Below are positions 34,330-45,903 of a stretch of DNA of 64,000 nt, piece by piece. The stretch spans positions 248,001 to 312,000 of the forward strand of contig NZ_BMKA01000003.1 of NCBI RefSeq assembly GCF_014643735.1. The letters run 5' to 3'. This DNA comes from Neptunicoccus cionae (lineage in GTDB: Bacteria; Pseudomonadota; Alphaproteobacteria; Rhodobacterales; Rhodobacteraceae). How positions within the stretch are numbered: position 1 is the stretch's first letter; each line of letters starts with the position of its first letter. The notes beneath the pieces were generated by a model that did no database searches, was not told the origin of the DNA, and saw nothing but the letters and a program-made list of their open reading frames with translations. Made by a program: the position numbers and the translations under genes.

Positions 34330-35244
34330 TCAGCTGACAATATCCATAAACTCGCGCCATTCTCGTGCGCTCATGCCGACGTCTGCGGCTTCGACCTTTT
34401 CGCCTTTTAACATCTTTCGCAGGGCTTCTACCGCGGGCTGGGACAGTTGTGCGCCGCCGAGGCGGTAATCCTCGAACGCTTTGTAAGCGTAGGGCACCCA
34501 ATCGGCCACGAGGCGGCAGATTTCTTCGGCGTAGACGCGGATTTCGTACTGGGCGTGGGAATCAGCCCGCAGACGCAGGAAGTGGAACAGGTTGTGCAGG
34601 TCCACCTTCCAATACCACTGGGTATAAATATTGGCCGGAAGGTTCATCCGCGCCAGTTCACGGGCGAGCGCAATGCCGTTGCCGTCCTCGCCCTCGTCTA
34701 TCATCGTGGCGTAATTGTCATAGGCCCGCGCGCTGTCCGCCTTGAGCATTTCCAGCACACGCTGCGCATCTTCCCCGACCAGCGTATCGCCGCGCCCCTG
34801 ATTGTTAATCACGCTCTGCTTGGCGAGATGTTCTTCTGCCGGAATGTAAAACTCACGGTCGAGAATCGAATACCGCGCGGAATATTCGTTCACATTGGCG
34901 GTCCGGTGGCGAATCCACTGGCGGGCCACGAAAACAGGCAGTTTGACGTGCAGCTTGATCTCGCACATTTCAAACGGGGTGGAATGCCAGTGCCGCATCA
35001 GATAGCGGATCAGACCTTCGTCATTCTGCACCGCTTTTGTGCCCTTGCCATAAGACACACGGGCCGCCTGCGTGATCGCCGCATCGTCGCCCATATAGTC
35101 GATCACCCGCACAAATCCGTGGTCCAGAACCGGCTGCGCGGTATAGAGGTGCTGCTCCATTCCCGGTGCAACCACACGGCGGGTCGGCGCGGATTGCGCC
35201 CGTTGTTCGCTGATTTCGGCCTGCTGTTCGGGGGTAAGTGGCAT
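34330..35244 (-). CDS. thyX: flavin-dependent thymidylate synthase
   Basis: A 304-residue enzyme that methylates dUMP to dTMP using methylenetetrahydrofolate, FAD and NADPH. The ThyX motif [14 protein letters not shown] lies at residues 112-125, with a further conserved [14 protein letters not shown] region that binds flavin and substrate. Its presence means the strain may not depend on ThyA. Monocistronic on the minus strand, with the ATG at 35244. Confidence 0.96.
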
Positions 35245-35470: not shown

Positions 35471-36319
35471 ATGAGATTCTCATTGGCAGCAGCAGCGTCC
35501 GTGGCTGTGTTCTTATCCGCATGTGGTGGCTCAACCGACAGCGCGTCCGATGAAACAGGTGACACAACCGGCGGCACCGACGGTGGCACCGAGGAAGAAG
35601 TTGTCGTGGATACCGGACCGGCCCAGATCCTGCTGGAAGGCGACAATCAGGCAACGCGTCTGGAATATGACAGCGATGCAGATCAGATCATTGTAGAAGA
35701 CATTCCCTTCGATGATGAAGTTTTTGAAAGCCGCCTCGACCGCACAGCCAGCCGCGATGAAAGCGCCTATCGCGCTTATTCCAGTGAACGTGGCTTTGAC
35801 GATTACACCGCTTACACCCGCGAAACCGACAGCGGTGCGGTTTCTGTAATTGTGGTGAACAGCGGCGAATACAAAGATCACGGTTATAGCGGTGCCGCGT
35901 ATTCCCGCACTGGCACCACTACCCTGCCCACCGAAAACCAACGCGCCTTTTACGAAGGTGAATACCTTGGCACCCGCACGAGCGAGGAAAGCGGCGGTAT
36001 GGACGTGATCGTCGGCGATGCAGAGTTGGCGGCAGATTTCTCTGATGACACCATTCGCGGCATAATCACCAAACGCCGCGTGACCGAGGATGAACTGGGT
36101 GTGGGCGCGGGAACGGATATTACGCTGGCCAACACCTCGATCGACCGCGCCTCAGGCGTTTTCAACGGCACCGCCTCTCAAACAAACGAAGACGTCACCT
36201 CGGATGGCACGTATTCCGGCATTCTTGGCGGTGACAACGCCGATGAAACGGCCGGCTATTTGATTCTGGAACGGGACTCCACCCGTGAACTGGGTGTGTT
36301 TACTGCCGTCGAACGCTGA
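35471..36319 (+). CDS. surface lipoprotein with TbpB-like beta-barrel domain, partner of a Slam-like protein
   Basis: A 282-residue lipoprotein: signal peptide 1-17 with lipobox LSAC (C18), then a D/E/T/G-rich linker (about 19-45). The C-terminal part carries DRASGVFNGTASQTNEDVTSDGTY and GILGGDNADETAGYLILE, which resemble the barrel of TbpB-type surface lipoproteins. The ATG at 35471 follows a purine-rich stretch and starts the only plausible lipoprotein signal; the frame start at 35324 is rejected. It lies 20 bases upstream of a TPR/DUF560 outer-membrane protein, the Slam arrangement, in which the lipoprotein is the exported cargo. No TonB receptor is next to it, so a transferrin-like role is not implied. 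Confidence 0.78.
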   Translation: MRFSLAAAASVAVFLSACGGSTDSASDETGDTTGGTDGGTEEEVVVDTGPAQILLEGDNQATRLEYDSDADQIIVEDIPFDDEVFESRLDRTASRDESAYRAYSSERGFDDYTAYTRETDSGAVSVIVVNSGEYKDHGYSGAAYSRTGTTTLPTENQRAFYEGEYLGTRTSEESGGMDVIVGDAELAADFSDDTIRGIITKRRVTEDELGVGAGTDITLANTSIDRASGVFNGTASQTNEDVTSDGTYSGILGGDNADETAGYLILERDSTRELGVFTAVER

Positions 36320-36339
36320 TCATAAGGGACCGCGCGGGG

Positions 36340-37719
36340 ATGCGGCGTTTACTTACCAGACTTGTGACACTTGGAACGGTCAGCCTCGGGTTGGCCGTTT
36401 CTGTCGGTTTTGCCGCCCCCCTGTCCATGTCCCCCGAGGAGGCTCGCGCTTTTGCGTGGCGCTCTCTCCAAAATAACCGGCCCCACATCACCCTGCAAAT
36501 CGCTGATGCGTTGAACAAGCGTGATCCCGACAGTTTTGAGGCAAACCTGTTGCGCGGTGAGGCTCTGCGCAGCCTGCAACAGCCCAAAGCCGCCAAGGGC
36601 GCTGCGCTGAAGGCATGGGCGCTTGCACAGACGTCCGAACACCGGTTTAACGCCGCCCATCTGGTGGCCAAAAGCTATTTTGCGGACGGGGCCAAGCTGC
36701 GCGCACAGTTCTGGTTGCGTCGTGCTGCACAAAATGCGCCGGATGCTAAGGCGCGGCGGTTGGCACGGCGGGATTTCAACTTTGTGCGCCGCAGCAAACC
36801 ACTTTCTACTGCTCTATCGTTTTCGGTATTCCCCTCCTCCAATATCAACAACGGCTCCACCAATGACGCGCTGGTGATCGGTGGGCTGCCTTTCCGCGTG
36901 CCTGCTTCTGGCCAACCCCATTCTGGGACTGGGTTCCGGCTTGGGGTTCACACACGTTATAACAAGGCGCTGAATGACACCACTTTGCTGCGGCTCGGGT
37001 TCAGTGCGACAGGCACCACCTATAGGTTGTCCAGCGATTCCAAAGCACTCGGTTCTGGTAAAACCGGCTCAGATTTCGCTTATGGCGCGGTGGAGGTTCA
37101 GGCCGGTGTAACGCTTTATCCTGACAGCGGCCAAACGCCGGGCTTTGGTGCTTCACGCTTTGATCTCGCGCTTGGGCGGAGCTGGTATGGCGGCAGCCCC
37201 CTGTCCAATTATTTACGCGCCAGTGCGGGGCAGGATTACCACTTCTCAAAAACCGCGAGGCTGCGCGGCACGCTGCAACTGGAACGTCAGAACCGTCTTG
37301 ATGCAGCCATTTCTTCCGCCAATATCGCCAGCTTGAACTTGGAAATGCAGCACCGGTTCAAAAACCGCGCTCGTGTGGGCTATGGCATTTACCTGCGCGA
37401 TACGTCCTCACGTTCTAATCTGGTGGAAAGCCGCGTTGCGGGGGGACAGGTCACTTATACTCCGCCGCCCCTGCCTATTGATGTGGTGCCGACCTTCTCC
37501 CTTTCAGCAGAGCGCACGGATTACCCCCGCCTGAACATAGGGGGCGTCCAACGGGTGGATGAGCGGGCCCGCGCAGCGGTTTCGCTTTTGTTTCCGAAGG
37601 TGAATTACTATGGCTTTGCCCCGACACTGAACCTCAGCGCGAGCAGAACAAATTCCACCATTCCGATCTATTCCACCAAGGATCTGCGGATGAACATCGG
37701 CTTTAAGTCCACCTTTTAA
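36340..37719 (+). CDS. Slam-like surface lipoprotein assembly modifier (TPR + DUF560 barrel)
   Basis: A 459-residue protein: signal peptide 1-26, an N-terminal TPR-like helical domain (about 30-150), and a C-terminal DUF560 outer-membrane barrel. The barrel begins SFSVFPSSNINNGST and GLPFRVPASGQPHSGTGFRLGV and ends with the outer-membrane signature phenylalanine. Size and order of parts match Neisseria Slam1/Slam2, which move lipoproteins from the periplasm to the cell surface. It is encoded 20 bases after its probable cargo lipoprotein. Assignment rests on architecture and motifs, not on a search. Confidence 0.82.
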   Translation: MRRLLTRLVTLGTVSLGLAVSVGFAAPLSMSPEEARAFAWRSLQNNRPHITLQIADALNKRDPDSFEANLLRGEALRSLQQPKAAKGAALKAWALAQTSEHRFNAAHLVAKSYFADGAKLRAQFWLRRAAQNAPDAKARRLARRDFNFVRRSKPLSTALSFSVFPSSNINNGSTNDALVIGGLPFRVPASGQPHSGTGFRLGVHTRYNKALNDTTLLRLGFSATGTTYRLSSDSKALGSGKTGSDFAYGAVEVQAGVTLYPDSGQTPGFGASRFDLALGRSWYGGSPLSNYLRASAGQDYHFSKTARLRGTLQLERQNRLDAAISSANIASLNLEMQHRFKNRARVGYGIYLRDTSSRSNLVESRVAGGQVTYTPPPLPIDVVPTFSLSAERTDYPRLNIGGVQRVDERARAAVSLLFPKVNYYGFAPTLNLSASRTNSTIPIYSTKDLRMNIGFKSTF

Positions 37720-37783: not shown

Positions 37784-38485
37784 ATGGAAACAGCCCGCCA
37801 CCACTTCTACGCCTTATCGCTCGCTGCCGTGACGTGGCTGGCTGCTCCGATGGCACAGGCCTGCGGCATTGCGCTGGCATTGGCGGTGGATGTATCCGGC
37901 TCGGTTGATGATCGAGAGTACGATCTGCAGATGGGCGGGCTCGCCGCTGCCTTGCGGGACGGATTGGTTGCGGATGCCCTTCTTGCCGAAGAGGCCGCAG
38001 TGATGGTGGTTCTATGGTCTGGCAGTTCACGCCAAACAGTAGTGGTGGATTGGCAGCGCCTTATGACGCCCGAGGATGTCGAACGTCTTGCCAAATCCGT
38101 TGAACGTGTCCCCCGCCAGTGGCGCAACTTTTCAACCGGCATCGGAGAAGCGCTTATCTTCACCGCAAACCGGTTCGGCCCTGTTGCAGATTGCGCCCGC
38201 CGCGTAATCGACGTGTCCGGCGATGGCACTTCAAACGAAGGCGCGCCCCCTGAAGAAATCAAGGAAATCCTTGCCGCAGCGGGCTATGTCATAAACGGGC
38301 TATCCATCGAAGGCGAAACCGCCCAGCTTACGGAATATTACCGCAAAAACGTGATCGCTGGTCCAAATGCTTTCGTCCTGCCAGCCTTCGGCTTTTTCGA
38401 CTACCCCGAAAAGATCCGCAGAAAGCTGATCCGCGAAGTCACCAAGCAAGTCGCCCAAGGGTCGGACACAAAAGAAGACGGATAA
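37784..38485 (+). CDS. DUF1194 exported protein with VWA-like fold
   Basis: A 233-residue protein with a signal peptide (residues 1-26, ending MAQA) and a VWA-like domain whose MIDAS motif is DVSGSVD (about 37-43); VIDVSGDGTSNEGAPP is the second conserved block. DUF1194 proteins are common in Rhodobacteraceae and of unknown function. The ATG at 37784 is chosen because AAGAGGGG precedes it and it gives the signal peptide; the frame start at 37730 is rejected. It follows the Slam-like gene by 64 bases and might be co-transcribed with it, but no functional link is evident. Confidence 0.85.
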   Translation: METARHHFYALSLAAVTWLAAPMAQACGIALALAVDVSGSVDDREYDLQMGGLAAALRDGLVADALLAEEAAVMVVLWSGSSRQTVVVDWQRLMTPEDVERLAKSVERVPRQWRNFSTGIGEALIFTANRFGPVADCARRVIDVSGDGTSNEGAPPEEIKEILAAAGYVINGLSIEGETAQLTEYYRKNVIAGPNAFVLPAFGFFDYPEKIRRKLIREVTKQVAQGSDTKEDG

Positions 38486-38533: not shown

Positions 38534-39367
38534 TCAATGCGTCCCCGCGTTCCCCGCACCATTAGGGAAGAACAACTGCTGCCCGTCCCGCGTGTAAGCC
38601 GCTATCAGCGATTGGCCCGCTTCCGAAAGCATCCAGTGAAGAAACATCTGCGCCCCTTGTGCGTTCACATGGGGATGGCGTTCGGGATTGACGGCGATGA
38701 TGCCATATTGATTGAACAGCGCAGCGTCTCCGGCGAACAGAATGTCGTGCTGGTCCTTTCCGGCAAAGGCGATCCATGTGGCGCGGTCGGTCAGGGTGTA
38801 ACCCTCGGATTCCACAGCAATCCTTAGGGTCGCGCCCATGCCCGCACCGGTTTCGCGGTACCATTGGCCATCAGCGCTTTCAACATCTACACCGGCATCA
38901 GCCCAGAGACTGCGCTCTTTCTTGTGGGTGCCGCTGTCATCGCCACGGGAAAAGAACGGCGTGCCACTGACGGCAATCTTTCCCAGCAGATCCGGCAAGG
39001 TTTCGACCACCCGCAGCCCGTCAGGGTCGGTCTTTGGCCCCACCAGCACAAAATCATTATACATCAAATCGAACCGCTCCACTCCGTAACCATCGGCTAC
39101 GAAAGCCTCCTCTGCAGCTTTGGCATGAACCAGCAACACATCCGCATCCCCGTTCCGCGCGTTGTTGATCGCCTGACCGGTTCCAACCGAAACAACGTCT
39201 ACGCGCAGACCGGTTTCGGCCTCAAACAGAGGGAGGAGATAGGCATAGAGGCCGGAATTTTCTGTCGAAGTGGTGGATTGCACCAGAACCCGCGCCGGAT
39301 CGGCCAGAACGAGGTTGCCAGCAACAGCAAACACCGCAAGACTGCCAAGGAATTTGAAAATACGCAT
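38534..39367 (-). CDS. tupA: tungstate-type ABC transporter substrate-binding protein (TupA-like)
   Basis: A 277-residue periplasmic binding protein: signal peptide 1-22, then VQSTTSTENSGLYAYLLPLFE, which marks the oxyanion-binding TupA/WtpA group. PFFSRGDDSGTHKKE (central) and ETGAGMGATLRIA complete the anion pocket. By family it delivers tungstate (or molybdate) to a TupB/TupC transporter. Neither tupB nor tupC is in the window downstream, so the gene is an orphan here. It is divergent from a ModE-like regulator across a perfect palindrome, which probably controls both. Confidence 0.88.
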   Translation of the reverse strand: MRIFKFLGSLAVFAVAGNLVLADPARVLVQSTTSTENSGLYAYLLPLFEAETGLRVDVVSVGTGQAINNARNGDADVLLVHAKAAEEAFVADGYGVERFDLMYNDFVLVGPKTDPDGLRVVETLPDLLGKIAVSGTPFFSRGDDSGTHKKERSLWADAGVDVESADGQWYRETGAGMGATLRIAVESEGYTLTDRATWIAFAGKDQHDILFAGDAALFNQYGIIAVNPERHPHVNAQGAQMFLHWMLSEAGQSLIAAYTRDGQQLFFPNGAGNAGTH

Positions 39368-39389
39368 GGAGCGCCTCCGCTGAAGAATC

Positions 39390-39413
39390 CAATGTGCTAA
39401 TTTTAGCACATTG
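39390..39413. promoter_or_regulatory. 24-bp palindromic operator between tupA and the ModE-like gene
   Basis: The arms CAATGTGCTAA (39390-39400) and TTAGCACATTG (39403-39413) are perfect inverted repeats with a 2-base spacer. It lies 22 bases upstream of the tupA start and 46 bases upstream of the regulator start, in the position expected for an operator controlling both. ModE-type boxes are also AT-rich palindromes, but this sequence is not the E. coli ModE consensus. Confidence 0.75.
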
Positions 39414-39459
39414 CACAATCGGTAGCCCCTGCCCCCGTCACACGCAAGCCTGAAGACCA

Positions 39460-39870
39460 ATGAGCACAAAGAAAAACAACCGCCGCGCAGAACGGATCGC
39501 ACAAACACCTCAGTTGCGGGCGAAAGTTCTGGTACGCAATGACATGATTGGCGCCGGTAAAATCGAATTGCTGCGCCGCATTGGGGACACAGGCTCGATC
39601 AGTGCTGCCGCCAAGGACATGGGGCTCGGCTATCGCCGCGCACTGTTTTTGATCGAAACGACCCAGCGCATGTTTGACAGCCCTTTGTTAATTACCGAAC
39701 GGGGCGGCAGCAGTGCAGGCAGCAGGCTGACCCCGCTTGGCCGCGCATTGGTTGAACGTCACGGGGCTTTTGAAGACGCACTCGCCGACAGTGCCGCCGG
39801 TTTTCTGGACTGGCTGGAGGAACACCAAAACCGCGACCCCCTGAGCGAGCCGAAACCTGAACCCCCTTGA
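39460..39870 (+). CDS. ModE-like winged-helix regulator (N-terminal DNA-binding domain only)
   Basis: A 136-residue protein with the ModE/LysR-type helix-turn-helix: GAGKIELLRRIGDTGSISAAAKDMGLGYRRALFLIETTQRMF (about 30-72), then the wing LLITERGGSSAGSRLTPLGRALV. It lacks the molbindin domains of full ModE, so it cannot sense oxyanion the way E. coli ModE does by the known route. It is divergent from tupA, with the palindrome between. A repressor/activator of tungstate or molybdate uptake is the likely role. Confidence 0.85.
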   Translation: MSTKKNNRRAERIAQTPQLRAKVLVRNDMIGAGKIELLRRIGDTGSISAAAKDMGLGYRRALFLIETTQRMFDSPLLITERGGSSAGSRLTPLGRALVERHGAFEDALADSAAGFLDWLEEHQNRDPLSEPKPEPP

Positions 39871-44838: not shown

Positions 44839-45903
44839 TTGGCATATTTTACCTTTTATGAGGTTAACGGCGATCCGTTAAACAGCAGCCATCTCCGTCT
44901 GGGGTCCAGTGGACGTGCCTATATCGAAGATAACGACGGCTTTCTAGAATCCGGTGCAGATGACACCGGGGTGCAATTCTCCATCGACGGCGAAGATTTC
45001 TATTCTTCTGCCTGGCCCGATTACACCTCAACAGGTGATAAGGTTGAAATATTTTCGGCCACCGTGCGCATCCAAGGATCGGAAGAGACCGTTACCTTTG
45101 CCTATCTCACTTCCGAAAGGGATGGTGTAGATGACAGGGTCGATCGGATTGTCCAGCTTTCCGGCCCCGAATTCAGCCCGAGGATGCGGCTGCGCGACAT
45201 CGAGCTAGAAACGGGGAATGACAATGTCCCTTACAATTCAATCCCCTCGATCATCTGCTTTACACCAGACGCCATGATCACCACCCCGCGTGGGCAGGTG
45301 GCCGTGCAGGATTTGCAGGTGGGTGATCTGGTGATCACAGCTGACAACGGTTTGCAAGCCATCCGCTGGATCGGACGCAAACGGATGAGCGGCGCGCGCC
45401 TTCAGGCCTATCCGGAGTTGCGCCCCGTGCGCATTCGCAAAGATGCCTTTGGGCCAGGACAACCGACACGCGATCTCTGGGTATCGCCCCAGCACCGAAT
45501 GCTGGTGCGTTCCGAACGGGCGGCGCTGGATTTTGGCGAAACCGAGATGCTTCTCCCTGCCAAGGGCCTGTTGAACGACAGCTCTATCACGGTGGATTAC
45601 GGTATGCGGGAGACGGATTACATCCATATTCTGTTCGATCGCCATGAGGTGATTTTTGCCAATGGCACACCCAGCGAAAGCTTTCATCCAGGTCACCATG
45701 CAATTGACACGATCGACGACGAAGCCCGCACCGAACTGTTTGAGATATTCCCCGAACTCGAGACCACACCAACGGATTACGGCCCTACAGCGCGGCTTAG
45801 CCTCAAGGTGCGGGAAACCCGTGCATTCCTACGTCGAGGTGGTGGGGGCAGAGCGGGATCGATAAGGAAATTTCGTAACGACTCCAACCGCTTCGCAATG
45901 TGA
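44839..45903 (+). CDS. Hint-domain protein (first of two)
   Basis: A 354-residue protein with N-terminal ~135 residues of unknown fold (FTFYEVNGDPLNSSHLRLG) and a Hint domain starting at C140 (CFTPDAMITTPRGQVAVQDLQVGDLV). It holds the late Hint histidine region WVSPQHRML and ends with HILFDRHEVIFANGTPSESFHPG. Such Hint_2 proteins are common in Rhodobacteraceae, with unknown function; self-cleavage is possible but not shown. It begins with TTG; no ATG fits, and the second Hint protein has a similar N-terminus (ITFYETLG), which supports this start. Regulation: CtrA site and structured leader upstream. Confidence 0.85.
   Translation: MAYFTFYEVNGDPLNSSHLRLGSSGRAYIEDNDGFLESGADDTGVQFSIDGEDFYSSAWPDYTSTGDKVEIFSATVRIQGSEETVTFAYLTSERDGVDDRVDRIVQLSGPEFSPRMRLRDIELETGNDNVPYNSIPSIICFTPDAMITTPRGQVAVQDLQVGDLVITADNGLQAIRWIGRKRMSGARLQAYPELRPVRIRKDAFGPGQPTRDLWVSPQHRMLVRSERAALDFGETEMLLPAKGLLNDSSITVDYGMRETDYIHILFDRHEVIFANGTPSESFHPGHHAIDTIDDEARTELFEIFPELETTPTDYGPTARLSLKVRETRAFLRRGGGGRAGSIRKFRNDSNRFAM

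Follow-up and report, generated by a model that had tools for sequence, protein, structure and literature searches.

In Neisseria, Moraxella and Haemophilus, Slam proteins are outer membrane proteins (OMPs) with a TPR part and a DUF560 part, and in many species their genes neighbour those of lipidated cargo proteins such as TbpB or HpuA, which have an eight-stranded barrel (PMC5449769, PMC9090332). According to the survey data given there, 185 of 353 Slam genes adjoin a gene for a lipobox protein (PMC5449769), and the export of Moraxella TbpB was reported to be reconstituted with Slam1 in liposomes, where Skp was needed (PMC9090332). A marine 'cluster 3' locus of the type 11 secretion system (T11SS) was described by Grossman et al. 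(2025) in 11 Rhodobacteraceae/Roseobacteraceae strains, 10 of which had a cargo lipoprotein of 282-375 aa (PMC12282271). For 145 OMP genes the same account counts 8 loci with TbpBBD and predicts 0.21 cargo per OMP. Its authors proposed for cluster 3 that exporters are seldom near their cargo, that the cargo falls below the similarity threshold, or that it was lost (PMC12282271). Here we analysed a two-gene locus of this kind, a lipoprotein gene followed by a Slam-type OMP gene (the exporter), at positions 35,471 to 37,719 of a 64,000-nucleotide stretch of Neptunicoccus cionae DNA (the window).

The window pair is an instance of the published marine locus and not a new kind. The family, ThyX, the cargo lipoprotein, the T11SS OMP and DUF1194 are common to both; GloA (lactoylglutathione lyase), which the account places in all 11 inspected cluster 3 loci (PMC12282271), gave no tblastn match in the 64-kb window and none in its near-duplicate locus (L092). 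Amylibacter cionae IEX10_RS12250, a presumed orthologue of the window cargo, is among the modelled cargos, with a barrel in the published models (PMC12282271). With the Neisseria, Moraxella and Haemophilus systems the pair shares the TPR + DUF560 OMP, the lipidated cargo and the neighbouring genes. It differs from them in a weakly similar cargo whose barrel is predicted from a family match, in that no transferrin or haem partner was seen, and in its marine host. It also departs from the published cluster 3 account, in which linked cargo is rare, by its linkage (65/71 orthologous loci) and by its apparent behaviour as a swapped cassette. We consider it very likely that the window pair is a type 11 (Slam-type) secretion pair whose OMP and cargo are matched and replaced as one cassette. 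A search of open-licence papers by title and start of abstract found no further literature on marine members or on Slam cassette exchange.

The two proteins of the window pair

The features of the pair are as follows.

35471..36319, + strand: cargo lipoprotein, 282 aa, MRFSLAAAASVAVFLSAC; signal peptidase II (SPII)-type signal, tether, N-terminal region and predicted C-terminal TbpB-type barrel region
35513..35524, + strand: lipobox LSAC with predicted lipidated Cys18, read in the sequence
35936..36307, + strand: TbpB_B_D (PF01298) region, residues 156-279, by Pfam
36340..37719, + strand: T11SS (Slam-type) outer membrane protein, 459 aa, by Pfam and reading frame
36433..36792, + strand: periplasmic TPR region, residues 32-151, by predicted helices; the family profile matches solved TPR proteins
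36817..37716, + strand: DUF560/SlipAM beta-barrel region, residues 160-459, by Pfam

The first-pass annotation, made from the letters of this DNA, had described a lipoprotein with an LSAC lipobox and a TbpB-like C-terminus, 20 bases before a protein with a signal peptide, TPR and DUF560. The lipobox was confirmed: a signal of 17 residues precedes LSAC, and the tether after Cys18 is acidic and rich in Asp, Glu, Gly and Thr. The TbpB-like C-terminus was borne out by hidden Markov model search, marginally (TbpB_B_D, 27.3 bits, cut-off 26). NCBIfam slam_lipo matched with an E-value of 1.7e-7 (31.7 against a cut-off of 80), and FHBP_C (factor H binding protein C-terminus) matched the C-terminal region more weakly than TbpB_B_D and below its cut-off. 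The TbpB_B_D match supports an eight-stranded TbpB-type barrel at the cargo C-terminus as a candidate fold.

The ATG of the exporter lies at 36340, which confirms the 20-base gap. SlipAM (PF04575) matched residues 160-459 with 28.9 bits (cut-off 22), a signal peptide was read by eye at the N-terminus, and the OMP family profile matched TPR structures in the PDB; the annotated order of parts thus holds. SlipAM was also present in 50/50 aligned OMP relatives at E ≤ 0.01, a set originally found via PF04575. Structure prediction, which had been proposed for the pair, succeeded in part: with an alignment of four near-identical sequences, AlphaFold modelled the TPR helices within residues 32-151 confidently (block-mean predicted local distance difference test score, pLDDT, 75-89), and the OMP barrel (mean pLDDT of the whole OMP 42.5) and the cargo (mean pLDDT 35.3) poorly.

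Three related genomes carry exporters 92, 91 and 89% identical to that of the window, namely those of Amylibacter cionae, of a metagenome bin from the Rhodobacteraceae and of Neptunicoccus sediminis; in the last, the DNA around the pair is 84-85% identical to the window. Because of these three related genomes, and because the two-gene order recurs at 65/71 orthologous loci, the pair is not a chance arrangement. The Amylibacter cionae genome (G001) carries a second, clearly distinct DUF560 protein on another contig (L066, G001:C13:308961-309818; 36.5 bits to the window OMP).

Linkage of exporter and cargo across Rhodobacteraceae

For the family, 296 genomes were searched with PF04575; 108 matched, and the 128 places among the matches listed were compared with the window OMP. 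Seventy places scored above 75 bits (the next score was 61) and, together with the window, formed a set of 71 orthologous loci. A cargo profile seeded from the window lipoprotein alone found a cargo at 45 of these loci in the first round and at 65 after iteration. In 64 of the 65 the two frames share a strand and that of the cargo starts first. L153 departs from this in that its long stop-to-stop OMP frame starts before the cargo; by profile coordinates the cargo still precedes the OMP, by about 12 bp. The gap between cargo and OMP was −4 to +20 bp in 44/63 pairs (starts chosen by our own rule). A signal with a lipobox-like Cys was seen in 64/65 cargo relatives, in the classical pattern in 61, as judged by our own rule without a shuffled control and not by SignalP. 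As a check of specificity, the first round of the profile matched 0/58 other PF04575 loci, and the last one gave 3 weak matches.

Two further profile sets (A1 and A2) were drawn from 54 loci picked for diversity (< 52% OMP identity); the OMP profile A2 excludes L087, L122, L151 and L153, and L125, which has no recognisable N-terminus, was kept unchanged. In a wider profile search of the 296 genomes, 134 of the 150 OMPs among the matches listed had a cargo directly upstream. Matches occurred in 176 genomes, of which these 150 OMPs represent 145, and a linked pair was present in 134/145 genomes among the matches listed. As A2 was built only from OMPs with cargo, it could favour paired OMPs; the 65/71 count is free of that bias. 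Pfam TbpB_B_D matched 13/54 diverse cargos even at E ≤ 1, and at the same threshold the weak C-terminal resemblance to FHBP_C and slam_lipo was seen in 16/54 and 22/54, respectively. The cargo is therefore usually present in this data set but too diverged for standard models. The low linkage count in the literature would be explained by this, because TbpB_B_D matches only those 13 cargos.

Cargo and OMP are not always found side by side. Eleven genomes had only unpaired OMPs, and 3 of them (G058, G059, G264) carry a divergent cargo elsewhere; five genomes with a complete pair (G122, G149, G221, G240, G298) carry an extra divergent cargo. Four genomes (G109, G159, G201, G257) had a cargo-like match and no OMP among the matches listed, which fits less well; weaker OMP matches exist in G109 and G257, and none among the matches listed in G159 and G201. 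The unlinked divergent cargos may be additional clients of the exporter of the same genome. Their neighbours (10 proteins from 7 loci) showed no common theme and no TonB receptor. In a class-level draw the cargo profile matched 5/289 genomes, three of which (G001, G072, G264) are shared with the family draw and two of which are weak.

Two sets of loci were noted on the side. At L108, L131, L141 and L147 the OMP lies near ThyX with no cargo match in the slot, and these are possible natural cases of cargo loss. At L164-L167, L169, L171, L172 and L176 there are divergent cargo-like lipoproteins with no exporter match within the fetched 7.5-12.9 kb.

Co-variation of the pair and its proposed replacement in the slot

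Distances were compared after removal of three OMPs longer than 520 aa from the chosen start (818-852 aa; L122 and L153 among the cargo loci). RpoB was used as the species marker: 60 of 61 paired genomes were queried and 3 gave none (n=57), with open reading frames chosen by an RpoB motif. OMP and cargo distances were correlated with r 0.664 (n=62), and the largest value of 1000 permutations was 0.136. With tree distances r was 0.706 (n=57), and the partial correlation given RpoB was 0.690. The species signal was much smaller, 0.207 for OMP and 0.275 for cargo against RpoB (n=57), whereas the flanking genes track species (ThyX-RpoB 0.669 at 41 loci, GloA-RpoB 0.492 at 54 loci). OMP distances correlated with those of ThyX, GloA and DUF1194 at 0.16-0.33. 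OMP and cargo thus form a matched pair, close together in 65/71 loci and changing together. Between parts of the two proteins the largest correlation was that of the TPR with the cargo barrel (0.588; other part pairs 0.541, 0.474 and 0.457), which fits the idea that the periplasmic domain recognises the barrel, the differences being small.

A deep split of the OMP tree (support 94) divides the proteins into two types, of 25 and 32 genomes. OMP type changes 3 times on the cargo tree and 14 times on the RpoB tree (mean of 200 shuffles 18.8, minimum 13). In 55/57 genomes the OMP type agrees with that of the nearest neighbour by cargo, and OMP and cargo share their nearest neighbour in 26/57. In a 43-locus set with a similar OMP split (17 vs 26), 3 changes were counted on the cargo tree and 13 on the ThyX+GloA tree (shuffled 13.8), and the approximately unbiased (AU) test rejected monophyly for this split on the ThyX+GloA tree (p 6e-7).

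Alignments of DNA around the slot were made for close pairs of genomes (RpoB distance ≤ 0.2). From 137 such pairs, 62 with one or both flanks unaligned were set aside. In the remaining 75 the cassette was unaligned in 56, the OMP was aligned in 7, and 12 lay between. Homology ends a median of 193 bp upstream of the cargo gene; on the other side it sets in again 74 bp past the OMP gene. The closest pair, L158/L103, has flanks 74-81% identical and a cassette without alignment; in L116/L129 the alignment runs straight through the cassette. Because the pair is weakly tied to the species marker and to the flanks, and because versions that cannot be aligned occupy the same slot in close species, we infer that recombination in the flanks exchanges both genes together, as one cassette. 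It seems fairly probable that matched cassettes of at least two deep types swap in a fixed ThyX-GloA slot, so that close species display unrelated versions of a surface protein. A composition test for foreign DNA gave no support: the GC content of the cassette is a median of 2 points above the flanks and lower than them in 15/57. Exchange would therefore have to be among relatives.

Several observations weigh against this interpretation. The species signal is weak and not absent: the 14 changes on the RpoB tree are below the shuffled mean, the OMP type agrees with that of the nearest neighbour by RpoB in 38/57 genomes (about 28 expected by our own arithmetic), and OMP and RpoB share 9/57 nearest neighbours (chance 1.0). 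The AU test on the 43-locus set also rejected monophyly for that split on the cargo tree (p 3e-27), so that occasional re-pairing has to be assumed. The 75 DNA pairs reuse genomes and so are not independent; 2 of them align in the cargo and not in the OMP. Among the 56 unaligned pairs, 19 combine genomes of the same broad type, so that part of the count of 56 may reflect divergence and not type exchange. Sixteen of the 150 OMPs among the matches listed have no adjacent cargo match. For the lipoprotein itself, the TbpB_B_D match is marginal, slam_lipo stays below its cut-off, the AlphaFold model is unusable, and searches with the cargo profile and of PDB sequences returned no solved TbpB-type structure. 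To our knowledge there are no experiments on a marine member. L137 and L128 look like examples of re-pairing.

The same pattern could arise from very fast evolution, or from ancient duplicates sorted by loss, with no replacement in the slot. The trees are deep, with a median identity between species of about 29% for OMP and 28% for cargo, a second strong OMP match exists in several genomes (G147, G119, G264, G123), and three one-type pairs at RpoB distances of 0.09-0.14 exceed an OMP distance of 3; 19 of the unaligned pairs, too, are of the same type. Against this, the closest species pair (RpoB distance 0.075) is of different types with an OMP distance of 3.0, while five other pairs at RpoB distances of 0.09-0.14 have OMP distances of 0.45-0.77. 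Type follows the nearest cargo neighbour (55/57) far better than the nearest RpoB neighbour (38/57), and the 13 changes on the ThyX+GloA tree hardly differ from the shuffled mean of 13.8. We regard fast evolution or sorted duplicates as an unlikely explanation of the cassette pattern as a whole.

Probable export, neighbouring genes and meaning of the proposed cassette

If the pair works like its homologues in Neisseria, Moraxella and Haemophilus, Sec would export the lipoprotein, which would then be lipidated, Lol would carry it towards the outer membrane, and a chaperone such as Skp would keep it unfolded. The periplasmic part of the OMP would recognise the cargo via its C-terminal barrel, and the cargo would pass through the DUF560 barrel and remain anchored to the cell surface through its lipid. 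By this analogy the cargo is probably surface-exposed. The earlier idea, a TbpB-fold lipoprotein paired with a dedicated Slam-like exporter, is supported by homology, gene order and co-evolution.

Two neighbours of the pair in the window also occur in the marine cluster 3 set.

34330..35244, - strand: ThyX, flavin-dependent thymidylate synthase, by family match; left border of the slot
37784..38485, + strand: DUF1194 (vWA-like) protein, 217 bits, with a DxSxS motif at 37889-37903; frequent neighbour

Across the 71 orthologous loci, GloA was a neighbour in 64, mostly directly downstream of the exporter, ThyX in 52 and DUF1194 in 47. The term 'self-contained', which the first-pass annotation had used, is right for the pair, but these genes often stand beside it. 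ThyX is probably a border of the slot and not part of the function of the pair.

The cargo might be a nutrient binder (for metal, haem or a cofactor), as in several host-associated systems, with its TonB partner elsewhere in the genome. Nickel, cobalamin or molybdopterin were considered by Grossman et al., whose account links only cluster 1 with metal and haem (PMC12282271). In line with the annotation that no TonB receptor or haem gene is adjacent, none was found among 8 further window proteins scanned (2/8 without any family). Upstream of 64 cargos there was no iron-box enrichment in a weak motif test: the iron-rhodo box occurred 2 times (3.2 expected), the ICE half-site 2 times (1.1 expected), and Fur-like and Zur-like motifs 0 times each, with almost none expected for either. 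A role in nutrient binding therefore appears rather improbable. That the lipoprotein stays periplasmic while the OMP exports another substrate, such as DUF1194 proteins, is very improbable. In its favour, DUF1194 occurs in 102/145 published neighbourhoods (PMC12282271), and at four of the 71 loci ThyX still adjoins the OMP region although no cargo match is present. Against it, cargo is present in 65/71 loci vs DUF1194 in 47/71, and across the same 32 loci OMP distances correlate with those of DUF1194 at r 0.19 vs 0.72 with those of the cargo.

Elsewhere in the window, at positions 38534-39870, a solute-binding protein (PBP_like_2) and a small helix-turn-helix protein (HTH_1 below cut-off) are encoded back to back; we take them to be possibly an oxyanion (tungstate or molybdate) uptake protein and its regulator. 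A protein with a Hint-like domain motif (CFTPDAMITTPRG...) lies at 44839-45903; such proteins are common in Rhodobacteraceae.

In conclusion, what is new here relative to the literature searched is the near-universal linkage, together with the evidence that exporter and lipoprotein change together as an exchangeable cassette. It addresses the published question of whether marine T11SS exporters lie apart from their cargo, have cargo too diverged to be recognised, or have changed in function. The dozens of exporter-cargo pairs form a natural series for direct tests of secretion specificity. Diversifying selection on a surface protein by phage, grazers, hosts or recognition would lead one to expect such cassette exchange, and this fast-changing, probably surface-exposed protein may matter in the interactions of roseobacters with phages, grazers or algae. 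If the interpretation as a matched and exchangeable cassette is true, the locus would correspond, in the environment, to an antigen-variation or recognition locus that exchanges the secretion machine along with its substrate.
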